From IMG/VR virus record IMGVR_UViG_3300034073_003250, positions 1 through 44,752 of that record: a DNA stretch of 44,752 nt, one strand, 5' to 3'. Below, in pieces: positions 465 through 44,752 of the stretch. The translations under genes and the position numbers were made by a program. Origin of the DNA: a virus. The notes under the pieces are model-generated. The model was not told the DNA's origin and made no database searches. It saw nothing but the letters and a program-made list of their open reading frames with translations. The stretch's first letter is position 1, and every line of letters begins with the position of its first letter.

Positions 465-733
465 GAATATTTGGTGATAGGTTTTTGGTTGAGCTGTCGA
501 AAGACGAGAAGAAAGATCTTTTCCTGCAGTACGAACACCGCGAAACGTACAGCAGGAAAAACAGGGGCACGGTGGTAGCCGTCGGTGAGGGTGTGAGTGC
601 TGAATTTGGCATTGGTGTTGGTGATGAGATTCTGTTTGTTGAAAACGGTGCGTTCTGTGTCGAGATGAGCGATACTCAGTTAGTAGTTGATAGGCTAGCG
701 GTGATCGCTAAAATTGAGAAGGAGAAAAAATAA
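461..733 (+). CDS. groES: GroES-like co-chaperonin (Cpn10)
   Basis: The product is 90 residues, close to the 95-97 of bacterial GroES. It starts MRIFGDRFLVEL and carries the family signature RGTVVAVGEG followed by GVGDEILF, the beta-barrel core of Cpn10. Family knowledge: GroES caps the GroEL cavity through a mobile loop. Here the loop region (about residues 14-33) lacks the canonical Gly-Gly-hydrophobic motif and has DLFLQYEHRE instead, suggesting it is matched to the adjacent phage GroEL rather than to the host ring. The start is fixed by the GGAAGGAG site and the ATGA overlap with terL; the stop overlaps groEL as TAATG, so the two are translationally coupled. Confidence 0.88.
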   Translation: MRIFGDRFLVELSKDEKKDLFLQYEHRETYSRKNRGTVVAVGEGVSAEFGIGVGDEILFVENGAFCVEMSDTQLVVDRLAVIAKIEKEKK

Positions 734-2355
734 TGCGTGTAGTTCGTGGTGCTGAGTGTGAGGACATGATCCTAGATGCAGTTGAGAAAATGGCAGACGC
801 AGTAGGCTCTACGATGGGGCCTGGTGGCCGGCTAGTTATGTTTGACAGTGGGTTTCAGCTTGAAGAAGGGAAGCCAATCCCGTCTAAAATGAATCTGTTT
901 CCACAGACGACTAAGGATGGCGTCACGGTGGCCATGCGAGGTATACCCGGTGGAGATGCCAGACAGCCAGCGCTAATGGTTGTACAGAACGCGTTGGCAC
1001 AGTTGCGCGATGCTGGAGACGGTACGACGCTAACAACCGTTTTGTTGCATAGAATGCTATATGAATCGATCATGGTTAAGCGAAAAATGGGGCGTGATTT
1101 CGATGCCCTGGCATTTATAACGTGCCTGGGTGACTATGTGCACCGTATCCAGGAAATCGTGGTCAGCATGGCTAAATCATGCACAGATGACGACATCAGA
1201 AAGATTGCGAAGGTGAGCACCAATGGCGATTATCCGTTGTCTGCAATCATTTCTGAGGCCGTAATCCGCTCAGGTGAGCACGGGAAGATTTTGGTTCAGC
1301 AGACGAAGCGTGGCGGAACACGGTATGAGGTAATCCCTGGGTACTCATTTGAGTCTGGTCTAATGTCGCCAGCATTCAGGAACACACCAACGCATTACGA
1401 GTGCCAAGAAGCCAACGTGTTGGTAACGGATATGGAATTGAGGGTGTTTGGGCGTGATATCGCCCCGATACTATCGAAGTACAATCAGATGTGTGGTGGT
1501 ACATCTGAATCTGAAGCCGTAAACGCCCCACCATTGCTACTGTTTGCGCCTCTGATTGAGGGTGACGCACTTCAATCCTTGAGTGTGATGATGGAAAAAT
1601 CATCCTTGAGAGTTATTCCCGTGAAGCTAGAAGGGTATGCCAGCGTGCAGGAGCATTGCATCCGTGATATTGCAGCGTATACGGGAGCTATTCCAGTGCT
1701 GGATGGCGAAGGTAAGAAATTGGTGGATGTTGGGCCAGAGCATTTTGGAAACGTTGGAAGCGCGAAAATAAGCGTGTTTGACACCATCATTACACCTATG
1801 AACGGCATTACCGTTGATAAGAAGCGCATGGATGAGCTAAACGCGCTTCTAACACACGAAGATGAATTTCACCGTGGGCTAGCTGAAAAATCACTAGCTA
1901 GACTCACGTCTGGGTATGTGAAGATCTTCATTCAGGCTAAGAATGAGACAGAAGGATTGGAGATAGCAGACCGTGTGGACGATGCTATCCGTGCTTGCCG
2001 TGCTGCTAAGAAATCTGGCTATGTGGTTGGTGCTGGATGCGCGTTGTTACACGCATTCGATAAGTTTGCCTCTGAGAAAGGCAAGGATTTTCAGGTGCAA
2101 AAGGTGCTAGAGGAGGCACTATCAGAGCCAGCGCGTAGGATTATCACAAACGCAGGAAAGAAGCCTGAAATTCTAATCGAAAAAGTGCGTGAAGGGGCAG
2201 CATATGCCTACCCAGATTTCTTCCCGATACATACCCAAATGGCTATTGAGAGGGGTATTATTGATCCGGTATTGGTTGTAACTAGTGCGCTAGAGAATTC
2301 ATTCTCAATGATGAAAAATCTATTGCTCACTGAGACCATATTTTTGAAAGACTGA
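733..2355 (+). CDS. groEL: GroEL-like chaperonin (Cpn60)
   Basis: This 540-residue divergent group I chaperonin keeps the nucleotide pocket: TMGPGGR (about 27-33), TKDGVTVA (60-67), AGDGTT with catalytic Asp96, and RVDDA with Asp417 (E. coli D398 equivalent), followed by the ALL-type C-terminal equatorial motif in VGAGCALLHA. ATP hydrolysis is therefore likely retained. Differences from host GroEL: an insertion between the GPGGR and KDG motifs (about 39-58), a divergent apical domain, and no Gly-Gly-Met tail (it ends TETIFLKD). Its place between terL and portal suggests a role in folding capsid or portal subunits. Phage GroELs are known in a few giant phages; a co-transcribed GroES/GroEL pair in a 44-kb genome is uncommon. 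Confidence 0.9.
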   Translation: MRVVRGAECEDMILDAVEKMADAVGSTMGPGGRLVMFDSGFQLEEGKPIPSKMNLFPQTTKDGVTVAMRGIPGGDARQPALMVVQNALAQLRDAGDGTTLTTVLLHRMLYESIMVKRKMGRDFDALAFITCLGDYVHRIQEIVVSMAKSCTDDDIRKIAKVSTNGDYPLSAIISEAVIRSGEHGKILVQQTKRGGTRYEVIPGYSFESGLMSPAFRNTPTHYECQEANVLVTDMELRVFGRDIAPILSKYNQMCGGTSESEAVNAPPLLLFAPLIEGDALQSLSVMMEKSSLRVIPVKLEGYASVQEHCIRDIAAYTGAIPVLDGEGKKLVDVGPEHFGNVGSAKISVFDTIITPMNGITVDKKRMDELNALLTHEDEFHRGLAEKSLARLTSGYVKIFIQAKNETEGLEIADRVDDAIRACRAAKKSGYVVGAGCALLHAFDKFASEKGKDFQVQKVLEEALSEPARRIITNAGKKPEILIEKVREGAAYAYPDFFPIHTQMAIERGIIDPVLVVTSALENSFSMMKNLLLTETIFLKD

Positions 2356-8095: not shown

Positions 8096-9076
8096 ATGGG
8101 ATACACAAATTTTCCTAATGGGGCAACTAGCTTTGGTATTCCTTTGCTTGGGGGTGGCGGTATTCCCGCTACCCCTGGCAAGGTGTTTTTTGTTGATTAT
8201 GGGAATGGAAGCGATGCAAACAACGGGTTATCAATCGAAAAGCCATTTAAGACTGTTGCGTATGCCTACTCTCAAGTCAGAACAAATAAGTATGATGTAA
8301 TCTGTTTAATCGGTTCATCTACACACGTCTTGACTGAGATGCTGGACGTAAGCAAAAACCGCGTTATCTTCATCGGATTGGATGGGGCTACCGGTCGTTC
8401 CTATGGTCAATCGGCCAAAATCTCTTTGGGTGTAACTACGTCTGCGACGGATATTGCAACTGTAAAGAACACTGGTATCAGGAACGTGTTCAACAATATC
8501 AAGTTCATCAATGACAACACTGTAGCAGAGGGCATTTATTGCTTTGTAGATGGTGGCGAGTACACCGAGATGGTGAATTGCGAAGTCTATAAATCCACCG
8601 ACATGGATGTTACTGGCGCTGCTGACTTTGTATGTAATGCAGATAGTCCAAACTATGTGAACTGTACATTTGGTTCTACAGCGACTGCGCGGTCTGGGGC
8701 TGTTATCCGTCCAGCTATTTTGTTCACAAAGGGGCTGGCTGGCTCTGGCAAAGTTACCAGAGATGCAACCTTTAAAGAGTGCAAAATCTGGATTAATGCC
8801 TCAAATACAGCTAACCGGTTTGTCTATGGCGCAAATGCTACGGACATTGAACGGTTTGCTCTTTTTGACCGTTGCTTCTTTCTGAACAATGGCGCGTCTG
8901 CAAATGTCCCCGCTCAAAACGTTGCCTTTGGGGCGACATTGACAGTGGGAATGGTATTGCTAAATGATTGCGTTTCTTTGAATGCAGCCACGGCAATGTC
9001 TACGACAACTGGCGTTTTTGTGAATGGATCTGTACCTGCTGCTGCAACAACTGGAATTGCTGTACAGGCGTCATAA
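8096..9076 (+). CDS. parallel beta-helix protein, probable capsid or tail surface protein
   Basis: A 326-residue protein. The stretch VDYGNGSDANNG, then KPFKTVAYA (about 38-60), is the classic entry motif of right-handed parallel beta-helix (pectate-lyase-like) domains, and short repeating beta turns rich in N, C and V follow to about residue 250. The N-terminus is Gly/Pro-rich. Such folds in phages serve as fibres, spikes or capsid-attached adhesins. Its position directly after the capsid gene, before the fibre cassette, leaves both options open. It starts 3 bp after the capsid gene stop and overlaps the next gene by TAATG. Confidence 0.65.
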   Translation: MGYTNFPNGATSFGIPLLGGGGIPATPGKVFFVDYGNGSDANNGLSIEKPFKTVAYAYSQVRTNKYDVICLIGSSTHVLTEMLDVSKNRVIFIGLDGATGRSYGQSAKISLGVTTSATDIATVKNTGIRNVFNNIKFINDNTVAEGIYCFVDGGEYTEMVNCEVYKSTDMDVTGAADFVCNADSPNYVNCTFGSTATARSGAVIRPAILFTKGLAGSGKVTRDATFKECKIWINASNTANRFVYGANATDIERFALFDRCFFLNNGASANVPAQNVAFGATLTVGMVLLNDCVSLNAATAMSTTTGVFVNGSVPAAATTGIAVQAS

Positions 9077-14422: not shown

Positions 14423-15283
14423 ATGATAGTAAATGACGTTTTTAAGCTTTTCTGTGCGATGGTGAGAACCGACATCTATAGCGATATAGAGAGAAAAGAA
14501 TTAGCCTTTAACGAGGGGTATCTTCACCTTGTTGATAAGTGCCTTCAAAAAAACTGTGATATTGAGGAGCTTGTTGTAATCGGACAATCAATAGCAGTAA
14601 CGATAAACCAAAACTATGTTTCTTTGCCTTCAAACTTTTATGCCTTAAAAAAGCTATACAGGAAAGAAGGTACGCTATACCGTGATTTCAGACCTTCTGA
14701 AAACATGACCTTTGAAGATCTAACGGAGTTTGTTTCTGATAGGTTTTTTGACACTACGGATACTGGGGACTTTAGGTTTTTTGCAATCAAGAAGCCGTAT
14801 ATCTATTTTGATCATCACGCATTAGCAACCAATGCAACTGGTCTAAAAATAAACTATATCAAAAATCCAGCATCCGTCTCCTTCTATGACAGTATGCCTA
14901 TCACAAATATAGTAGGCAGCTTTTCTGTTGGGGATATTGTATCTGGACAATCATCAGGTTCTAGTGCAGAGGTAACCGCCGTTGGCTCAGATTATCTCTA
15001 CATAAAATCTTCAACGATCTCGGGCCCGTTTGCTGTTGATGAAGAGATTTCAAACCTAACAGGAGCTACCGCAGACTTAAATGGGGCTATAGATCCAAAG
15101 GTCCAAGAGCTTGAGCTTGGAGACCAATACAAGCTGCTGTTGGCCACCGCTATTTCTTCGATGTATTTGTTTATGGATGATGATATTGAGGGGCAAGCAA
15201 AGGATGCCAGTTTAGACGCGTTAATAGACACACTAAATAACAGGAACGCAAATAAGCAGCGCAAGCGGTGGGGCTATCTATAA
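14423..15283 (+). CDS. head-to-tail adaptor protein (gp6/gp4-like)
   Basis: The product has 286 residues. Helical ends flank an inserted beta domain (about residues 160-225) with FSVGDIVSGQSSGSSAEVTA, then GPFAVDEEISNLTGATADL, the duplicated G-x-S-G-A-T-A motif often found inserted in phage adaptor and baseplate proteins. Order (adaptor, nozzle, ejection proteins) matches short-tailed phages. It probably binds below the portal ring. The stop overlaps the nozzle gene start as TAATG. Assigned from order and the inserted domain. Confidence 0.65.
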   Translation: MIVNDVFKLFCAMVRTDIYSDIERKELAFNEGYLHLVDKCLQKNCDIEELVVIGQSIAVTINQNYVSLPSNFYALKKLYRKEGTLYRDFRPSENMTFEDLTEFVSDRFFDTTDTGDFRFFAIKKPYIYFDHHALATNATGLKINYIKNPASVSFYDSMPITNIVGSFSVGDIVSGQSSGSSAEVTAVGSDYLYIKSSTISGPFAVDEEISNLTGATADLNGAIDPKVQELELGDQYKLLLATAISSMYLFMDDDIEGQAKDASLDALIDTLNNRNANKQRKRWGYL

Positions 15284-16950
15284 TGCTGCGCTTCTCAGGG
15301 CAATCAAAAACCTTTCAAGGTAAGATCATTAATGAGTTTTTAAGCCAGGTGCAGGCATCTGAGACAAATAAACTTGGAGCCCCGCTTGGCCAGTTGTTCT
15401 ACAACAAGAATATGAGCTATTTGTATTCAACTCAAAATGTGTTTCTAAAAACACGTCACGGATCAGACCTAATCCAGGATATCAACGCTAGATCCTATGG
15501 GGCAGGTAACTATACATACAACAATGAATCCGATTATTTTGTGTGGGTAGACTCTATTGGTGATCTTGTTTACCTAGATGAAGACGATTCCATTATCAAT
15601 ATAATTAAATCCGGGATAGGTACATCACAAGCATTTTTCTATATGTATGGCGCTCAAACAAGCTCTGCTCTTTATGGATGTAATGGAACAAATGTATTCA
15701 AGGTAACCGGAGCCGTTCCTGTTTATTCAGACATTGCAAGCTCACCACCGGCCACTATGATTGCCTTTTCAAATATCAGCAAGAGGATGTTTGCCATCCG
15801 GCAAAATAGCCACCGGATAGATTTTACAGAACCACAGGTAGATGCCCTAAACCTCACAAACCTAGAAACGTGGGGAACAGATAACAACGTGAATATAAGC
15901 CCAGACAATGGCTCTGGGATAAAGGCTATCATTGATGATGGGCAGATTATGTATTTTATCAAAGATACTGGGATCTGGGCATTGCCAAACGCCTACGACG
16001 ATCCTACCGATTGGATTTTTCCAAAGCTAAAATCAAACATTGGAACACTAAGCCCAAAGACGGTATGCCGTGCTAAGTATGGGGACCGTGAGGGAATCGT
16101 ATTCCTAGCCTCTGACAAGACGCTTCGTTTCTTTTCGCCTCAAATACGGAGAAACTCAGGGACACTCCCCGACATCATCAGTGACGACACTATCATCATA
16201 AGCAAAAATTTCCAGGAAGTTTTAGACGGTATCCCAGATTTATTGCTTTCAGATTGCGCGGCTTCTTTTTTTGATAATGAGCTCAAGTTAACTGTAGCCA
16301 CCGCAAATGCAAGTCGCTTGAATTACCGTCTAGTAATCGATATGGAAAAGCTTGTAGCCCCACAAGGACGCTCTGATTCCAAGCAGCCCCGATGGTATTT
16401 TGATGATGACGGACTATTTATTACTGATTATGTCATTAGATCATCAAACAACATGCAGTATGGCTTTAACATTGACGGGTACATCTCATTGCTAAACGCA
16501 GAAAACCTTCGCGTAGACGAGGTTCCTACACGGATAGATGCCTCTGGATCTGTTGCAATAGAGTGGGGATTTTACTTATCCTGGTTTAAGTTTTCAGCGT
16601 ACCCGGTTGAGTTGCAAAAGCTTTATGTAAACTACCAGACAGAAGGATACTGGGTATTCAAGTGTGCAGTAAACTCATTTAGCGATGGAGACCCATTTGT
16701 TCCAGACTTTGACAATGCATCGCTCTTTGATTTGCGTCCTTATCAAGGCGGCTCCTTTTATGATATCAGTCAGTTTGATATCAGTCAGTTTTCAGGGAGT
16801 GGGCAAGAGTCTTCTATTATCACGCCAAATAGGAAAGGTCAGTATTTTTTATTTGGGATATATGGAAAAAACAAGGGAGAGACCGCGTCTATTTTTTCAC
16901 TTGCGCCAGTATTCAAAACCATTAGACAATCTGTCATCACAAGGAGATAA
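15283..16950 (+). CDS. tail nozzle / tubular protein (T7 gp12 / P22 gp10-like)
   Basis: A 555-residue protein rich in repeated beta blades (YLDEDDSI, ALYGCNGTNVFKV, MYFIKDTGIWAL, IVFLASDKTLRFF), consistent with the beta-propeller nozzles of podovirus tails. It begins MLRFSGQSK at a TAATG overlap with the adaptor gene; an upstream in-frame start is rejected because it lies inside the adaptor gene. A small direct repeat DISQFDISQF occurs near the C-terminus. The nozzle closes the tail channel and holds fibres. Assigned by size, blades and position. Confidence 0.7.
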   Translation: MLRFSGQSKTFQGKIINEFLSQVQASETNKLGAPLGQLFYNKNMSYLYSTQNVFLKTRHGSDLIQDINARSYGAGNYTYNNESDYFVWVDSIGDLVYLDEDDSIINIIKSGIGTSQAFFYMYGAQTSSALYGCNGTNVFKVTGAVPVYSDIASSPPATMIAFSNISKRMFAIRQNSHRIDFTEPQVDALNLTNLETWGTDNNVNISPDNGSGIKAIIDDGQIMYFIKDTGIWALPNAYDDPTDWIFPKLKSNIGTLSPKTVCRAKYGDREGIVFLASDKTLRFFSPQIRRNSGTLPDIISDDTIIISKNFQEVLDGIPDLLLSDCAASFFDNELKLTVATANASRLNYRLVIDMEKLVAPQGRSDSKQPRWYFDDDGLFITDYVIRSSNNMQYGFNIDGYISLLNAENLRVDEVPTRIDASGSVAIEWGFYLSWFKFSAYPVELQKLYVNYQTEGYWVFKCAVNSFSDGDPFVPDFDNASLFDLRPYQGGSFYDISQFDISQFSGSGQESSIITPNRKGQYFLFGIYGKNKGETASIFSLAPVFKTIRQSVITRR

Positions 16951-16956
16951 AAAACA

Positions 16957-19104
16957 ATGCTAGGGACAGTAACCGAACAATCAAAAGCAACGCCAACACA
17001 ACAACAAGATCCCAACGCAAATGCGCCTATTCCACCTATAGCGCCACAGCAAGCGCCGACAATGCAACCTATGCAACAAACACAAACGACACAGCAGGCG
17101 CCACCACCACCTGCTTTCCAGTACCAACGTCAACCTACCGTGCAAGATTACATCAATGAAGCCAGGAAGCTTGGTCAAGAGCAAATACTTGCATTTAACC
17201 CTATTATTCAGCAACAAGCAGATGAGGCTGGAAAATCTGCAATGAAGCGGTTAATAGGTCAAAATGTGGACCTGTCATCAGGTGTTGGCAAGGACATTGT
17301 TGGAAAACAACTTAAACCCATTTTTGAGCAACAAGCGGCGCAAGCAAATGCACTTGGCGCACAACTGGGAAGCCAGGCTTTGCAGCAATATCAACAAGCT
17401 GACTATAGGAAGCAAGATCAAGATATAGCGCGCGCAAACAACATTATCACAATGATCCAGTCTGGCGGGTATACACCAACAGAAGCGGATCGTGCCTTTT
17501 TGGCATCACAAGGGTACACCGGTGATGTGGCAACAATGCAGTCAGACAACCAAAGATTAAACACCCTACTAGGCTTAATACAAAGTGGTGGATACACGCC
17601 CACTGAGTCAGACAAGGCATTTCTATCATCAAAAGGTATTGGTGGTGAGCTTGGGTCTGTGGAAATGAACCAACAGAGATTAAGCAACCTTCTAAGCTTA
17701 ATACAGCAAGGAAACTACACGCCAACAGAAGCAGATAAGGCATTCTTAGTGTCACAAGGGCTTGGTGGTAAGCTGGTGTCTTTGCCCTCTATAGAGATTG
17801 AGCAGCGCTTTGGCAGAAAAGAAGATGGGACAGCGTTTACCTCACAGCTAGAGGCTGAAGAATATTGGGCACAGCGCGGCTTTAATCGTGATCTTGTAAA
17901 CCAATACGGGATAAATCCCGCAACTGGAAAACCATGGGCATCCGAGCAAGAAGCCTTACTTGGCTGGAAAACGCTAGGGTTTAGGGAAGACGTTCTTTTG
18001 AATTATGGATTAGACCCTCGCACCGGAAAACCATTTACTTCACCACGTGCAGCAGAAGACTACTGGGAAGGTCAGAATTTTAACCGTGAGATTGTTCAAA
18101 GGTTTGGTATAGACCCGAATACCGGGAAGCCATTCCTTTCTGAGCAAGAAGGTTTACGGTATTACGAGAAAGTAAATAACCTAGACGGTTTAGATCTGCA
18201 ACAGAGAAGTGCTCTCCAAAAAATAGCACTAGCTTATGGCGTGAAGCCAGACGGGACTATGTTTGGCTCTGAAAATGAGGCCAAAGAGTTTTGGAATAAA
18301 AAAGAGATTGAGAATAAATTTGGGCTTGATCCTCGCACTGGTCAACAATTTGGTTCTGAAAATGACGCCATTGATTATTGGGATCAACGCGGATTTGATA
18401 AGAAGATTCTTCAGAAATATGGGATATCCGATTCTGGTATTCCATTTACAAACGAAGAGCAAGCTATCGCCTTCTGGAAAGCAAAAGGCTTTGAGCAAGC
18501 TTTGATTGAGAAATACGGCATTGGCCCAGATGGTAAACCACCAAAAACCGAGCAAGAAGGCCAAGCAATGCTGGATGCAAAAGAGCTAGATAGGCTAAAG
18601 CTAAACATCGAAGATAAGGCAATTGCTGACAGAATAAACGATCTTCAAGAGTGGCAGTACTACATGGAGAATGGGCGCACCTACGAGGATGAAATAGCCG
18701 ACATCATAGACACGTCTAAAACATTAGATCAGTGGAAATCATCATTGCCAAAAATACAGGCGCACATTGCCCGATTAGACGAAAGAATTGCCTATGAGGC
18801 TGTTATTAGAAAAGGAGAAACAGCCACAGCTAGATATAGGATGGAGCAATACAAAGAACAGCGAGAAATCCTTAACTCCATGGTCAGGGAAATACAGGCA
18901 GGCGTTATCCCAACGCAGGGGCTGGATTATGCGGGGTTTGATTATGTGGCACAGCAACTCGGACAAGAGCAGCCAACGCTACCAGGACAAGAGGTAATTC
19001 CGACTATCCAGCAAACCCAACAAGACAATAGCAACATACCCGAAATACCGCCGATATCAAATGCTGGAACTATTGGTGGACAAACAAACCCACTTATATA
19101 CTAG
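16957..19104 (+). CDS. repeat-containing internal virion (ejection) protein
   Basis: The product has 715 residues in three zones: a Gln/Pro-rich N-terminus (about 1-55); three copies of a roughly 42-residue module ending GGYTPTEADKAFLxSQG (about 160-275); then about seven copies of a roughly 30-36-residue module of the form YGI-x-P-x-TGKPF-x-S-E-x-EA-x-x-YW (about 280-540). A charged helical C-terminus follows. The modular repeats could form an elongated solenoid. Position after the nozzle and before two more large proteins fits ejection proteins, which leave the virion with the DNA and build a conduit across the envelope. No enzymatic motif is seen. Confidence 0.6.
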   Translation: MLGTVTEQSKATPTQQQDPNANAPIPPIAPQQAPTMQPMQQTQTTQQAPPPPAFQYQRQPTVQDYINEARKLGQEQILAFNPIIQQQADEAGKSAMKRLIGQNVDLSSGVGKDIVGKQLKPIFEQQAAQANALGAQLGSQALQQYQQADYRKQDQDIARANNIITMIQSGGYTPTEADRAFLASQGYTGDVATMQSDNQRLNTLLGLIQSGGYTPTESDKAFLSSKGIGGELGSVEMNQQRLSNLLSLIQQGNYTPTEADKAFLVSQGLGGKLVSLPSIEIEQRFGRKEDGTAFTSQLEAEEYWAQRGFNRDLVNQYGINPATGKPWASEQEALLGWKTLGFREDVLLNYGLDPRTGKPFTSPRAAEDYWEGQNFNREIVQRFGIDPNTGKPFLSEQEGLRYYEKVNNLDGLDLQQRSALQKIALAYGVKPDGTMFGSENEAKEFWNKKEIENKFGLDPRTGQQFGSENDAIDYWDQRGFDKKILQKYGISDSGIPFTNEEQAIAFWKAKGFEQALIEKYGIGPDGKPPKTEQEGQAMLDAKELDRLKLNIEDKAIADRINDLQEWQYYMENGRTYEDEIADIIDTSKTLDQWKSSLPKIQAHIARLDERIAYEAVIRKGETATARYRMEQYKEQREILNSMVREIQAGVIPTQGLDYAGFDYVAQQLGQEQPTLPGQEVIPTIQQTQQDNSNIPEIPPISNAGTIGGQTNPLIY

Positions 19105-27411: not shown

Positions 27412-27774
27412 ATGGAAAATGTTGAGTTTAAAAAACTGCATATAGGGACGGATCGTTTTACTAAGATACTCTATGACCCTTATCACGAGTCCGGCGTACC
27501 TCACCGATACAAAATCATGGATACGACAGGCTCTTTTGAGTTGGGCGATGTGTCTTTCCAAGACGGGCCGGTTCCATTATACGGAATTAATGGTGTTCAC
27601 CATGAGGATCTACTGGCCATCGTGATTGACAGACTGTGCAGGTTTCAAGATGGAAAATTTTCCTGCCGTGAAAACGAGATGGCAGTTACAAAACTAAAAG
27701 AGGCCCTACATTGGCTCAACCAAAGAACTTTGGATCGGCAGAGCAGAGAAGTTGAGGGGACATATAATCCATGA
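27412..27774 (+). CDS. Acb2/Tad1-hairpin-like protein (possible anti-CBASS sponge)
   Basis: A 120-residue protein. The C-terminal half (about 62-120: INGVHHEDLLAIVIDRL, then FSCRENEMAVTKLKEALHWL, then REVEGTYNP) is a two-helix hairpin of the type I recall in the Acb2/Tad1 family, small phage proteins that sequester cyclic nucleotides and block CBASS or Thoeris signalling. The N-terminal half (about 1-60) contains a beta-rich part (YKIMDTTGSFELGDVSFQDGPV) often fused to this hairpin. It is the last clear rightward gene and has a GGAG site 9 bp upstream. The assignment is from pattern memory and not from alignment. Confidence 0.5.
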   Translation: MENVEFKKLHIGTDRFTKILYDPYHESGVPHRYKIMDTTGSFELGDVSFQDGPVPLYGINGVHHEDLLAIVIDRLCRFQDGKFSCRENEMAVTKLKEALHWLNQRTLDRQSREVEGTYNP

Positions 27775-27827
27775 ATCTTTATACAAAAGACGACTGGGGA
27801 GAAGGTGGCGAGTGGGTAGATGGATGA
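27771..27827 (+). CDS. tentative 18-residue micro-ORF
   Basis: It starts in an ATGA overlap with the previous gene and encodes an acidic peptide (MNLYTKDDWGEGGEWVDG). Overlap coupling is the only support; it may simply be untranslated. Confidence 0.25.
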   Translation: MNLYTKDDWGEGGEWVDG

Positions 27828-27891
27828 GGCAACCATATTTTGGTGTTGTTTATTGGCGTTAATGCTTGCCCTTATGGTTCTTTTCCCATAG
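27820..27891 (+). CDS. tentative 23-residue membrane peptide
   Basis: The frame overlaps the preceding micro-ORF by 8 bases and encodes MDEATIFWCCLLALMLALMV plus three residues: a short acidic head and one hydrophobic helix. The ribosome site is weak. It ends at the edge of the structured RNA region. If made, it would be a small inner-membrane peptide. Confidence 0.3.
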   Translation: MDEATIFWCCLLALMLALMVLFP

Positions 27892-27892
27892 C

Positions 27893-28190
27893 TTTTAAAT
27901 CTCAAGCACCCATTCCACAGGCATCCCTAGTCCACATTTCAGTGAACGCCCTGGCGACAGGCTTTGGGATTTGGTGGGAGTTAAACCCTACGTGCTTGAG
28001 ACTTGTGTTGCCTAGCACAATTTTGTTCGCACCGTCCCGGGCTTGATTCCGGGTCTTAGGAATTTCCCAGACTCATACTGGCCGTGGTAGTCTCGCCGCA
28101 ATCCGTTCATTCAACAGACTCGAACTGTCTAAGGTGGCCTAGCTGGCAGCCGTTAATTCCTAGCGTGTCCTTCCACGCCGCCGGTGCATT
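27893..28190 (+). ncRNA. candidate structured RNA, about 300 nt, two domains
   Basis: No convincing gene occupies this stretch, which looks more GC-rich than its flanks. Domain I (27900-28001) is closed by a 10-bp stem TCTCAAGCAC/GTGCTTGAGA. A linker hairpin follows: TTGTGTT/AGCACAA with loop GCCT (28003-28020). Domain II (28029-28187) is closed by GCACCG/CGGTGC and holds a hairpin CCCGGG/TCCGGG, an arm closed by TAGGAATT (28057-28064)/AATTCCTA (28155-28162) and a hairpin GCGTG/CACGC (28163-28178). At least three stems contain or extend by G-U pairs that would be A-C mismatches on the other strand, favouring plus-strand transcription. It does not show RNase P or tmRNA signatures. Function unknown. 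Confidence 0.6.
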
Positions 28191-28218
28191 ATTAATTTAC
28201 ACTATGTTGTTTTTTGAA

Positions 28219-28698
28219 TCAAGAATGTGTCAGCTTATCAAGGTCTACAATCTCCTGTATTGTAAAAAAAGCCTCTGCATTCTTTTTTATTTCCTTATAG
28301 ATAGCAAATAATTCCCGTATTTTGGCAACGGTATCAAGATTAAGAGAATTGAACCACAGCCTTTTAGAATATGCATAATCAAGCGCATCTTCGTGGTCTT
28401 CGCAGATTATTTGGTGATAAAGATCAAATTTCAGAATAGACACAATTTGAATGTCTCTTGCGGCATCTTTTTTATAGCTTTCCACTATGTCAAAAAAACA
28501 TGGCATAATGAATGTCCAGACATCACCAAGGGCCATATCGGTTGGCTCCCATGGTTTTTTATTTGCCGGTGCTGTTCTTTGAAGGTGGATTTCGCCCTTC
28601 ACGCAAAATACATTAGAAAAAGGATGAAGCGCTCTCTTGCTTTCTTCAGATATAAATAACCGCATGTTATGTGTTTTAAGGTATTCTTTGAGTATCAT
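28219..28698 (-). CDS. early-region protein of unknown function
   Basis: A 159-residue soluble protein, the last (promoter-distal) gene of the leftward block. It is helical and rich in charged and aromatic residues, with FSNVFCVKGEIHLQ and a helical C-terminus (about 90-155). No family is recognised. It ends about 30 bp from the structured RNA region; no terminator with a T-tract is visible after it. Confidence 0.6.
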   Translation of the reverse strand: MILKEYLKTHNMRLFISEESKRALHPFSNVFCVKGEIHLQRTAPANKKPWEPTDMALGDVWTFIMPCFFDIVESYKKDAARDIQIVSILKFDLYHQIICEDHEDALDYAYSKRLWFNSLNLDTVAKIRELFAIYKEIKKNAEAFFTIQEIVDLDKLTHS

Positions 28699-33456: not shown

Positions 33457-34452
33457 TCACGCTACTGACCTCATAACCTCGTCGATAAACGGGGCGTAAA
33501 TCCACGGCGTGTCGGGTCCATTTTCCGATCCAGCCAGTCGTTTAGCCTCGATTAGAACGGACTTTCTGCGGTCAATGGTCAGTGAATCGTACTCACGCAA
33601 CACGGACTGGTACCGAACTCGCACCTCATCGCCCTCTGCGATGTCGGACGCTTTCCGATCCGCAACACGTTTTTCCTCAATGGCGCTCTTCTCACGTCGC
33701 TGAATCTCCAGCTCTCCAGCTTGGCATTCGTCCTCCCATCGGGATACCTCCTCGTTGTCCTTTCTCCAACAATCACGTAGATAGCCACGCAAGCTATACT
33801 CGTTTTTTATCAGCGTTCCAAGCTTCCTGCGGGTGTCGACAACGCGACCAATCAGGATTTCGACTGACTGCGGGATAGGAATCCAGCCCGTATTCCCGGT
33901 TGTTGGGCCTTGCTCTGAATTTTCAAAAAAAGCGGCGGCTGTACTTTTTGTAGCAGCTTGCTGCTTTTTTTGTTCTTCTCTTCTCTTCTCTTCTCTTAAA
34001 AGAGGGAGCGACGCTATCGTAGACGCTGTAGACGCGTCTACAGCGTCTACACAAGCGTCTACACAAGCGTCTACATGTAGACGCTCTGTAGACGCTAATT
34101 GTAGACGTTTTTGCGCTCTATAGCGCGCTTGTCGCTGTGTTTTGAGGCTGCGGGCTTTTTCTGTCTTTCCAGAACGCTCTTCAAAGTTTGGAACCGTGAT
34201 TTTCTCATTTTCGTTGTCGATAATGAGCCAGCCAGCATTTTCAAGTGCTTTTGCAAATCCATGTAGACGCATGTAGACGTCTACATCAGCGTCTACAGCG
34301 TCTACAACACCGTCTACAGAATTCTTATCAACCCATATCCAAAACCGGATAAGTTTTCCAATTACATCGTCTGTAGAAACGCCTAGAATCCGCGCTAATT
34401 TGAGCACCTCTGGCTTTTCTGGCGTTGCATGATCAATCGGTATCCAACTCAT
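33457..34452 (-). CDS. DnaD/O-like replication initiator with embedded iterons
   Basis: The product has 331 residues. Residues 1-95 (IDHATPEKPEVLKLARILGV, KLIRFWIWVDKN, ALENAGWLII, FEERSGKTEKARSLK) match the winged-helix N-terminal domain of phage DnaD/replisome-organiser proteins. The middle (about 110-165) is low complexity, with repeats of Val-Asp-Ala encoded by iterons and an EKRREEQKK stretch. The C-terminal part is helical. By analogy with lambda O, the protein would bind the iterons inside its own gene and recruit the host helicase; no helicase or loader gene is visible. Confidence 0.7.
   Translation of the reverse strand: MSWIPIDHATPEKPEVLKLARILGVSTDDVIGKLIRFWIWVDKNSVDGVVDAVDADVDVYMRLHGFAKALENAGWLIIDNENEKITVPNFEERSGKTEKARSLKTQRQARYRAQKRLQLASTERLHVDACVDACVDAVDASTASTIASLPLLREEKRREEQKKQQAATKSTAAAFFENSEQGPTTGNTGWIPIPQSVEILIGRVVDTRRKLGTLIKNEYSLRGYLRDCWRKDNEEVSRWEDECQAGELEIQRREKSAIEEKRVADRKASDIAEGDEVRVRYQSVLREYDSLTIDRRKSVLIEAKRLAGSENGPDTPWIYAPFIDEVMRSVA
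33976..33995. repeat. pentanucleotide repeat TTCTC x4
   Basis: Four perfect TTCTC units lie inside the initiator gene. A unit not divisible by 3 would shift the frame if copy number changed. Confidence 0.6.
34019..34318. repeat. iteron origin: fifteen TGTAGACGC repeats in two clusters
   Basis: Nine copies of the 9-bp motif (or its complement GCGTCTACA, allowing one mismatch) lie at 34019-34108 and six at 34262-34318. Some are back to back, giving perfect palindromes of 16 bp (34027-34042) and 14 bp (34272-34285). Both orientations occur. They lie within the initiator gene, as lambda ori lies within O, and are read there as Val-Asp-Ala repeats. Known analogy: initiators bind iterons to unwind a nearby AT-rich region. 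Confidence 0.85.
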
Positions 34453-38355: not shown

Positions 38356-38358
38356 TAA

Positions 38359-38402
38359 TTAATTTGGTATTAATTTGGTATTAATTTGGTATTAATTTGG
38401 TA
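38359..38402. repeat. four exact 11-bp tandem repeats upstream of the repressor promoter
   Basis: TTAATTTGGTA is repeated four times without a mismatch, ending 4 bp from the -35 box. The 11-bp period places all copies on about the same DNA face. Candidates: operator array for the adjacent HTH protein, or an UP element. A weak plus-strand promoter may also be read from TTGGTA toward TCTAAT (38409-38414). Confidence 0.8.
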
Positions 38403-38439
38403 TTCCGGTCTAATAAAAATCGTGATAGCATTCAAATGC

Positions 38440-38516
38440 GCACACGTAGCTCCAATAGGTTAGAGCCTGGTTCCTAATTTATTCCAGTGTTGTGGGTTCG
38501 AGTCCCACCGGGTGCG
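38440..38516 (+). tRNA. tRNA-Arg-like gene with distorted anticodon arm
   Basis: Acceptor GCACACG/CGGGTGC (one A-G mismatch), D-arm GCTC/GAGC, and a perfect T-arm GTGGG-TTCGAGT-CCCAC, whose sequence resembles bacterial tRNA-Arg(UCU/CCU). The anticodon stem is only CTGG/CCAG, with a 13-base interval (38471-38483) instead of 9, so the anticodon is uncertain (CCT is possible in TTCCTAA). The discriminator is G and CCA is not encoded. It may be a degenerate tRNA, a tRNA mimic, or an attachment-site relic. Confidence 0.55.
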
Positions 38517-38541: not shown

Positions 38542-39120
38542 CTATCTCGCCTTTCTCCTATTCTCTCCGTTAATCCTATCCGCACACCGTGGGCACCAGC
38601 TGTTAGACTTTTTCATGGAATGCCAGATAGTGTCCCATTTATGCCCGTATGCACACTCCCAATCATACCGCCCCCTTACGCCATGGTAGCTATCAGAAAG
38701 ACATTTGCCGCCGTTTTTAGCAGCATAAACCTGTAGATCGACCAAGCTTTCCTTGTATTTCCCAGTCATGTGGCCGGGGCATTTCAGGCAGCACCTACCC
38801 TCCATTGTGTGGTCTACGCGACGGCGCATATAGTGCCCATTTTGGCAGGATATCATTATTGTTTCGTTTGCAAATATGGGGGCCATGAGCTCAATCGGCG
38901 TTGGTTTCCTGGGTCGTTTTTCCGAATCTGGAAACACCCACAATGACCATCCGCGCTTCTCCAGGAACCGCGCAACGTCTATGAATTTGTACAGCAACTC
39001 TCCTTTCTTTCTGGAGAATCCCGATGGTTGTTTTTTCACAGGCGGGCCCCAGCCTATGAATTTTTTGGGGTTTGTAGTGTATTTTTTTACCCAGCCGGGC
39101 TGTGGCGTTGGGCTAAACAT
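38542..39120 (-). CDS. zinc-ribbon protein (DUF723-like C-terminus)
   Basis: The product has 192 residues. Residues 105-130 contain CQNGHYMRRRVDHTMEGRC, then CLKC, and the C-terminal part GKCLSDSYHGVRGRYDWEC, GHKWDTIWHSMKKSNSWCPRC is the typical GH-x-W...W-C-x-x-C zinc-ribbon found in homing-endonuclease and DUF723-type proteins. It probably binds DNA; no catalytic domain is visible. Overlaps the upstream gene by 8 bp. Confidence 0.65.
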   Translation of the reverse strand: MFSPTPQPGWVKKYTTNPKKFIGWGPPVKKQPSGFSRKKGELLYKFIDVARFLEKRGWSLWVFPDSEKRPRKPTPIELMAPIFANETIMISCQNGHYMRRRVDHTMEGRCCLKCPGHMTGKYKESLVDLQVYAAKNGGKCLSDSYHGVRGRYDWECAYGHKWDTIWHSMKKSNSWCPRCADRINGENRRKAR

Positions 39121-39595
39121 TGTTCTCTCCAGTCCTCTTTTCTATTTCTGCCGATTCCATTTCAACCGCCATTTTGGCCAGGCGATATGTTTTTTCTATC
39201 CGATCAAAACGGTCTGTCCCCCTTGGGGTTTCGTACGTTTCCTCAGATGCAAAAAATGCATCCCATTCCTGAATCGTTTTTTGCTTGCATCCTACCCTCA
39301 CCAATTTTTCTTTCGAGTTGTAAAAGACAAGCCACCTGCACCGGCCTGTCTGTATCCAGCCGTCCTCCCAAGTGCCGTTTTTCCACGTGCCGTTTTCCCA
39401 AGTGCCGTTTTTCCACGTGCCGTTTTCCCAAGTGCCATCCTCCCAAGTGCCGGATTTCCACGTGCCTGAGACAAAAACAATCTCGCCGCCGTCGGTTGTT
39501 TTTATGTGAGCGTTTTTTAACACTGCCAATTTCAACCAGGGGGCGGCTGTTTCTACTGCGTTAACATCTGTGATCGGGCTGTATTTATTTTTCAT
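39113..39595 (-). CDS. GTW-pentapeptide-repeat protein
   Basis: The product has 160 residues from MKNKYSPI, with a GGAGAT site upstream. Residues 45-80 are seven consecutive pentapeptides GTWxx (GTWKN, GTWEN, GTWED), encoded by a 15-bp DNA repeat. They resemble a right-handed beta-helix of the pentapeptide-repeat kind, with Trp stacked on one face. The following part (CRWLVFYNSKEKLVRVGC) is a small beta domain. Some pentapeptide-repeat proteins mimic DNA; whether this one does is not shown. Confidence 0.65.
   Translation of the reverse strand: MKNKYSPITDVNAVETAAPWLKLAVLKNAHIKTTDGGEIVFVSGTWKSGTWEDGTWENGTWKNGTWENGTWKNGTWEDGWIQTGRCRWLVFYNSKEKLVRVGCKQKTIQEWDAFFASEETYETPRGTDRFDRIEKTYRLAKMAVEMESAEIEKRTGENNV
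39362..39475. repeat. 15-bp coding tandem repeat (seven copies)
   Basis: A unit of the form CCCAAGTGCCGTTTT alternates with TCCACGTGCCGTTTT, giving a 30-bp higher-order period; each unit is one pentapeptide of the GTW protein. Confidence 0.8.
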
Positions 39596-39599
39596 TTTT

Positions 39600-39932
39600 T
39601 TATCTCCTTTTTTGTTGCTCCTCTTGAGCTGCAAGGTAAATTTCTAAAAAACTGCCATCCATAACTTCGGAAAAAAATGAGTCAGAAAAACATCCGCCGG
39701 CGTCACGCGTGTGAATGGCGAGACGCTCTACACCGTCCCAAAACTCATCAGAGCTCACATCGTGCTGAATGGCAGACATGAGCATGGTTTCTAGCATACC
39801 CCGTTTGTTTTTTTTTGTTTTTGATAGTGGGTGGCGCCCTGCTACGGAAAAAAGAGACTGTTTGCCATTTTTTTTCCGATGTCTCATCACCCTCGCAATA
39901 CACTTTTCCCTGAATTCAATATCCATATCCAT
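39600..39932 (-). CDS. early protein, unknown
   Basis: A 110-residue protein starting MDMDIEFREK, overlapping the upstream stop by 17 bp; a TTG five codons earlier is possible. It has a basic region (RHRKKNGKQS, KTKKNKRG) and an acidic helical C-terminus. The pattern HPLSKTKKNKRGMLETML resembles small phage proteins of unknown function. Confidence 0.5.
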   Translation of the reverse strand: MDMDIEFREKCIARVMRHRKKNGKQSLFSVAGRHPLSKTKKNKRGMLETMLMSAIQHDVSSDEFWDGVERLAIHTRDAGGCFSDSFFSEVMDGSFLEIYLAAQEEQQKRR

Positions 39933-43454: not shown

Positions 43455-44752
43455 ATGCGTGTTTTCGAGACTATGCCTCTGTTTTCGATGTTCCATGTAC
43501 CGCCCCTTGGTGGTGGAGAGGCAGGCCCGCTACAGCTCTGGGAGAGCCAGAAAACGTTTATACGGGACTATCTGCACGTGTACCAGTACCTCGCAGTGCT
43601 AAAAGCACGGCAGATGGGATTTACGACGATGATAGCGCTAGACACGTTCATCCAGGCATCGCTGATACCAGGCTATCTGGCTGGCTGGGTGTCGAAGTCG
43701 GAGGAGGCTAGTGTGGAAGCATTGGCGAAAATAAAGCGCACACTCGCACGCTCACCATTGGAGACACGATCTCTATTTGCATGTGAGGCTGGGGTGACGA
43801 AAATATCGTTCCCCAACGGGTCTGAGATACACGCACACAGCACGAAAGGCGGCAGGTCATTCTCGTATCACCGCGCGATTATAGATGAGGCTGGAGAGAT
43901 GAACGGTAGCGACTGTGTAGACCTCCAGGAGATCCTCGCTGCGATGATACCGACGCTCTCACAGACTGGTGGACAGGCGATAGTGTTGGGCACAAATAAA
44001 CCGAACGCAACGACGTTTAAACGACTGATTCTAGACGCGAAAAAACAGGCTAGCATATTCCGACTCTTCTTCTTCTCTTGCCACGATCAGCCAGGGTTCG
44101 ACGATGCAGCAAGGGAACGGAAACTGTTGGAGCTGGGAGGGGATAGGGACACGCTCAATAGGGAGTACCCGCGCACTGTAGAGGAGGCACTGATGGGCTC
44201 TAGTGCGCAGCGTTTCGCTCAGGACGCACTAAGGTGGTACGAGGAAAACGGGCAGGCTAAATGCATCGTACGTGGAAATATAGACAGCACTGGGCGTGTG
44301 GAAAAGCGGGATGACGGGAATATGTCGTTCTACCGACGATTTTACCCCGGAAACTCGTACATCATCGCAGCCGACGTAGCGGAGGGTTTGGAGCACGGGG
44401 ATTACTCGTGTGCGAAGATTTTCGACTCTATCACAGAGGAATTGGTGGCAGAATGGCACGGTCATATAGAGCACGCGGAATTTGGCAGTATACTAGCGAT
44501 TATCGGTCGTAGGTACACGAATGCGTATATCGTCGTCGAGGCTAATAACCATGGGGTAGCTACACTGGAGAGGCTAATCACTACTGAGGAATACCCACAG
44601 GAATTAATCCACGTGTCTAACTACGCGAAAGAGAAGGGCGATGATGCATACCGCGCCCCACAGAAGCGCTTCGGGTTTCTGACTACGTCGAAGATGAAAA
44701 GGCTGATTATCGATCAGCTGGCACAAGATTTGAATCAGCACGCTATCCCGTC
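43455..44752 (+). CDS. terL: terminase large subunit, N-terminal and central part (runs off the window end)
   Basis: It starts 3 bp after terS and continues at positions 3-464 of this window, 544 residues in all. Residues 50-58 (KARQMGFTT) form the variant Walker A found in terminases, IIDEAGE (Asp144-Glu145) is Walker B, and IIAADVAEG (Asp307) begins the RNase H-like nuclease, with YIVVEANNHG supplying a second acidic ligand. It powers DNA translocation and cuts concatemers. Codon use is richer in GC than the structural genes, so the terminase block may have a different origin. Confidence 0.93.
   Translation, partial: MRVFETMPLFSMFHVPPLGGGEAGPLQLWESQKTFIRDYLHVYQYLAVLKARQMGFTTMIALDTFIQASLIPGYLAGWVSKSEEASVEALAKIKRTLARSPLETRSLFACEAGVTKISFPNGSEIHAHSTKGGRSFSYHRAIIDEAGEMNGSDCVDLQEILAAMIPTLSQTGGQAIVLGTNKPNATTFKRLILDAKKQASIFRLFFFSCHDQPGFDDAARERKLLELGGDRDTLNREYPRTVEEALMGSSAQRFAQDALRWYEENGQAKCIVRGNIDSTGRVEKRDDGNMSFYRRFYPGNSYIIAADVAEGLEHGDYSCAKIFDSITEELVAEWHGHIEHAEFGSILAIIGRRYTNAYIVVEANNHGVATLERLITTEEYPQELIHVSNYAKEKGDDAYRAPQKRFGFLTTSKMKRLIIDQLAQDLNQHAIP
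44626..44752. repeat. terminal direct repeat, right copy
   Basis: Identical to positions 1-127; see the left copy. Unique genome length is therefore 44,625 bp. Confidence 0.95.

Follow-up and report, generated by a model that had tools for sequence, protein, structure and literature searches.

A folded intergenic spacer where the late and early operons of a GroEL-carrying phage converge, possibly a structured 3' end shared by both

The window, by which we mean the whole stretch of 44,752 nucleotides analysed here, is a phage genome. Its first and last 127 bases, positions 1-127 and 44626-44752, are identical repeats, so that the genome appears to be complete at 44,625 bp and either circular or circularly permuted, with the terminase gene spanning the join of the record's ends. 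The plus strand carries genes for a GroEL-like chaperonin, portal, Mu-gpT-like capsid, tail, endolysin and holin-like proteins, and the minus strand, from 28698 onward, carries genes for DUF3310, replication-initiation and Sak4-like proteins. These plus-strand (late) and minus-strand (early) gene sets meet head-on at 27892-28218, and the ORF lists thus place the convergence of the two operons where the initial annotation had put it. The features concerned are as follows.

733-2355, plus strand: GroEL-like chaperonin gene (phrog_5725), located between terminase and portal
27412-27774, plus strand: PHROG 2428 gene, 120 aa, the last well-supported gene of the plus operon
27771-27827, plus strand: tiny ORF, one of two overlapping tiny ORFs between the 27412-27774 gene and the spacer
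27820-27891, plus strand: hydrophobic 23-aa ORF (MDEATIFWCCLLALMLALMVLFP), apparently closing the plus operon, with a stop codon that abuts the spacer
27892-28218, either strand: intergenic spacer of 327 bp, delimited by ORF lists, coding scores and composition
28219-28698, minus strand: gene without a known family that lies farthest downstream in the minus (early) operon

The product of the 27412-27774 gene matches the Acb2/Tad1 hairpin domain (PF24729) below threshold, at E 1.4e-4 and 22.4 bits vs a cut-off of 27, and is possibly an anti-CBASS/anti-Thoeris sponge; an otherwise unrelated phage contig shares only this gene, at 51% identity. The best PHROGs match of the 23-aa ORF that follows reaches only E 0.044.

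The region had been described as about 300 bases without a convincing gene, and this description is upheld for 27892-28218. A hexamer coding score trained on the genome's long genes assigned +61 and +67 to the flanking genes, -8 and -31 to the plus-strand ORFs over the spacer, and -4 to a 38-aa minus-strand ORF within it, and the spacer ORFs had no match in Pfam or PHROGs even at E 10. We looked for a clear protein-coding signal in any one frame using these three resources and found none. One further ORF deserves mention.

28110-28012, minus strand: 32-aa ORF, hexamer score +7.1 (weakly positive), inside domain A and the linker described below, no family match

That the spacer encodes a short protein, such as the product of this ORF, is very improbable: the weakly positive score speaks for it, but the ORF is very short and has no clear ribosome-binding site, the other spacer ORFs score negative, and searches built partly on its peptides gave no relative. 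The GC content over the folded part of the spacer is about 53%, vs 43.7% genome-wide. The tetranucleotide CTAG occurs four times in the 299-bp element (27926-28163), a 5.4-fold enrichment over the genome, and all four copies read CCTAG on plus.

Stems of 10, 8 and 6 bp with internal hairpins, as first annotated, are present in the spacer, and the fold comprises the following parts.

27900-27909/27992-28001, both strands: 10-bp stem, a Watson-Crick inverted repeat (I1)
28057-28064/28155-28162, both strands: 8-bp stem, in the MFE of plus and minus
28029-28034/28182-28187, both strands: 6-bp closing stem, in the MFE of plus and minus
28036-28053, 28163-28178 and 28003-28020: inner hairpins of the computed fold
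28003-28020: linker hairpin TTGTG(TT)..(AG)CACAA, 7 bp with one G-U on plus, 5 bp on minus
27895-28006, minus strand: domain B, long-stemmed (the 3' domain on minus), from folding and inverted repeat I1

Domain A (28029-28187, which on the minus strand would be the 5' domain) is a compact four-way junction made up of the 6-bp closing stem, hairpin 28163-28178, the 8-bp stem and hairpin 28036-28053; its stems are common to the MFE of both strands, and on the minus strand it folds with a z of -2.83. Within the spacer fold, domain B is defined best when read on minus (z -3.76, 0 of 200 shuffles as low, MFE identical to the centroid), with a 13-bp stem containing one G-U pair (28004-27992/27909-27897) and inner stems at 27977-27974/27918-27915, 27970-27966/27927-27923 and 27947-27942/27935-27930. 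The stems nest without conflict across the full length of the spacer, and the two domains tile all of it. The main stems fold on both strands because they are Watson-Crick inverted repeats, as expected for an element that is used from both sides.

The initial annotation had argued for the plus strand on the grounds that three stems use G-U pairs working only on that strand. This argument did not hold, since both strands have wobble-dependent stems and each both gains and loses some of them. The plus fold contains 82 pairs, 6 of them G-U, and the minus fold 92, 11 of them G-U; gains confined to the minus strand are the extension of the 10-bp stem to 13 bp by one G-U pair, an 8-bp hairpin at 28120-28100 with two G-U pairs, and the stem 27947-27942/27935-27930. 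The minus strand folds to -106.9 kcal/mol (0 of 400 shuffles as low; z -2.8 to -3.2) and the plus strand to -95.8 kcal/mol (4% of shuffles as low; z -1.4 to -1.9). The minus strand is therefore the better folder, but a difference in fold energy between strands as large as this one is matched by 11% of shuffles and lies within chance. The strand cannot be told from a few G-U pairs; a functional RNA in the spacer is possible, and the plus-strand argument for one is not supported.

We also searched for signals that could start or end a transcript. No intrinsic terminator (a GC-rich hairpin followed by a T run) was found on either strand in 27780-28330, and scanning the same interval for promoters matching at least 9 of 12 positions found none. 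Reading the sequence directly gave one weaker match.

28222-28194, minus strand: weak promoter-like match TTGATT-17-TAAATT, 8/12, below the scanner threshold of 9

This match, which we treat as a lead only, lies upstream of the stem that closes domain A, about 7 nt away, such that a transcript driven by it would start near the first base of that stem. A perfect consensus promoter is present in the early region (42448-42420, minus strand), so promoters of this phage need not be weak.

These observations bear on one alternative, that the minus strand of the spacer gives rise to a free-standing noncoding RNA some 290 nt long, which would run from about 28187 to about 27897, have the four-way junction as its 5' domain and the long-stemmed part as its 3' domain, and serve in the infected cell as a scaffold or as a trans-acting RNA. 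We consider this unlikely. The minus strand folds best, its private G-U pairs give a long stem of 13 bp, no part of the spacer is left uncovered by the two domains, and a weak promoter-like match is suitably spaced upstream, yet that match is sub-threshold in a phage that has a perfect promoter elsewhere, there is no terminator at the 3' end, the energy difference between the strands is within chance, and neither a homologue in the collections searched nor an Rfam match was found. The bolder proposal that the spacer represents a new class of ~290-nt minus-strand phage RNA, with compact four-way-junction and long-stem domains and known from one member of a GroEL-carrying phage lineage, is more doubtful still.

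How exceptional the fold is depends on the comparison. Watson-Crick stems of at least 10 and at least 8 bp occur together in 1.1% of shuffles of the spacer, but stem pairs as long are present in 20 of 297 genome windows (6.7%), and 25 of 302 genome windows of 296 nt (8%) have a z of -2.8 or lower, although this comparison is imperfect in that most windows are coding and codon use also shapes their folding. Among 120-nt windows, 44 of 992 have a z below -3, and the best such window over the spacer reaches only -2.59. The spacer fold is moderately exceptional vs its own shuffles and unexceptional vs the rest of the genome, and the fold alone no longer counts as evidence because comparable folds are common among genome windows. 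The window counts, together with the lack of any conservation found, favour a second alternative, in which the spacer is ordinary, non-functional or decaying, and its GC-rich sequence folds as many other parts of the genome do. We regard this as a realistic but not the likeliest explanation, since phage genomes are compact, yet 327 bp with raised GC have been kept here, the stems nest free of conflict over the full length, and none of 400 shuffles with the same composition folds as low as the minus strand. If it is correct, the spacer illustrates how widespread stable folds with nested stems are in this genome. No fold in the genome is stronger than that at 34010-34321 (z about -8 on either strand), inside the replication-initiation gene, where it is caused by GTCTAC/GTAGAC-rich inverted and direct repeats encoding VDA-rich repeats.

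The spacer was initially said to lack signatures of RNase P, tmRNA and tRNA, and our searches agree, in that no Rfam family, tRNA or tmRNA was found there; the Rfam covariance-model check proposed at that stage likewise gave no match in the spacer. Rfam 15, whose families include GOLLD, ROOL, RNase P, tmRNA, tRNA, 6S, group I/II introns, HEARO and pRNA, matched at gathering threshold only a tRNA-like gene at 38440-38516 in the whole window, the spacer had no meaningful match at permissive E-values, and ARAGORN called no tRNA or tmRNA gene anywhere in the window. Two motif-level resemblances were considered and dropped, a minus-strand hairpin that is T-loop-like (GACAG-UUCGAGU-CUGUU) and a group I intron-like arrangement (AGACU/AGUCU interleaved with GGCC/GGCC): the intervening stretch is too short, and neither an interrupted exon nor an intron model match was found.

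The tRNA-like gene (plus strand, Rfam tRNA 35 bits, not called by ARAGORN) combines well-formed D and T arms with an anticodon stem of only 4 bp and an anticodon loop of 13 nt (TTCCTAATTTATT), and could be a decayed or unusual phage tRNA. Just upstream of it, at about 38358-38405, are four tandem, iteron-like copies of the 11-nt unit ATTAATTTGGT, a possible replication origin. Farther on, the minus-strand gene 39113-39634 encodes a protein with five-residue repeats (GTWENGTWKNGTWEDG...) that derive from 15-bp direct repeats at 39359-39466.

Relatives of the phage proved to be few and remote. Single-sequence scans with the portal, capsid and neighbouring genes detected no close kin; the portal, the 8096-9076 protein and the tail protein 15268-16950 had no match among the phage records; and terminase scans detected remote kin only, the nearest terminase being 36% identical. 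That terminase belongs to the best relative, IMGVR_UViG_3300035698_003942 (G017, also L101), in which the genes for terminase, GroEL, portal, capsid and tail follow one another as they do here, such that GroEL lies between terminase and portal in this distant phage as well (GroEL 28% identical). The G017 record is 21.9 kb long and holds only the late module, as far as the homologue of gene 16957-19104, ending before the convergence point. A second relative (JAHFKK010000008.1), reached via alignment A7 and ~50% identical in the 8096-9076 protein, is a 15.6-kb contig that also ends before the spacer region; it is binned in a Candidatus Gottesmanbacteria groundwater MAG, which reflects either misbinning or a hint at host or habitat.

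Searches with the spacer itself gave a similar picture. Using blastn (word 11, E up to 10), we found no homologue among 50,697 phage records and only chance matches of 21-29 bp among 72,556 plasmids, and blastn against 380 genomes of the phylum of the MAG holding the second relative returned two matches of 30-33 bp, which we took as chance. Degenerate pattern scans of 2.9 million viral contigs (two scans) and of GTDB genomes (one scan), each using six 24-nt patterns from the translated frames of the spacer, yielded no confirmed relative, with confirmation by tblastn, a step at which an RNA relative carrying indels might be lost. The two covariance models, R1 for domain B and R2 for domain A, are weak because each was built from a single sequence; run on the window and on about 50 phage records of kin and distant phages, they matched only the spacer itself, except for one weak R2 match (E 3.5). 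Because the kin records stop short of the convergence point, the absence of homologues says little about conservation; it mostly reflects a want of suitable records and is not evidence against conservation of the element.

Our leading, though tentative, reading is that the spacer is a structured untranslated 3' end common to the two converging transcription units. The mRNA of whichever operon is being transcribed would end in, or run into, the spacer stems. Self-complementary and able to form whichever strand is read, these stems (10/13, 8, 6, 5 and 5 bp) would guard the message against 3' exonucleases, stabilising the transcripts, and would help to keep the two head-on transcripts apart. Intrinsic termination by a hairpin plus T run is not part of the proposed mechanism because no such terminator was found. 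What we observe is that the spacer lies between convergent operons, that it contains the stems and that no convincing gene occupies it; transcription through it, 3'-end formation within it and protection of the message are what we infer. Convergent genes ending on each side, a minus fold below 400 of 400 shuffles, a plus fold below about 96% of them, a well-defined domain B and a GC content of the folded part above that of the genome argue for a shared 3' end, and the lack of a terminator and of a homologue, and an energy and stem lengths usual for this genome, argue against it.

Among the rivals to the shared 3' end, the free-standing minus-strand RNA is the most interesting and the plain spacer the sober one, and overall the spacer is a modest, unproven RNA candidate. 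Should it act as a functional RNA, this poorly known phage lineage would possess an RNA element not yet characterised, in which a single set of inverted repeats serves two head-on transcripts.

Several known systems invite comparison. The packaging RNA (pRNA) of phi29, about 170 nt long, belongs to phi29-like phages and is, as the spacer may be, a structured RNA encoded by a phage; the spacer differs in having no Rfam match and in lying about 15 kb from the packaging genes of its phage. RNA anti-CRISPRs (Racrs) are solitary CRISPR-repeat mimics (PMC10651486). The spacer resembles them as a phage-encoded RNA candidate near a gene with a weak anti-defence match (27412-27774), but it matches no CRISPR repeat family and its fold is much larger than one repeat. 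GOLLD and ROOL are large phage and prophage RNAs of unknown function, many GOLLD RNAs exceeding 800 nt (PMC12286853). Like them, the spacer is a candidate structured RNA in a phage without a known protein partner; unlike them, it is about 300 nt long, lies away from a tRNA island, matches neither Rfam model and has no known relatives. The structured 3' UTRs of phage and bacterial operons form stable stem-loops at mRNA 3' ends. The spacer departs from them in being common to two convergent operons, in its ~300-nt length and several domains, and in having no hairpin-plus-T-run terminator, and it resembles them in following the last gene, in its stable stems and in carrying no clear coding signal.
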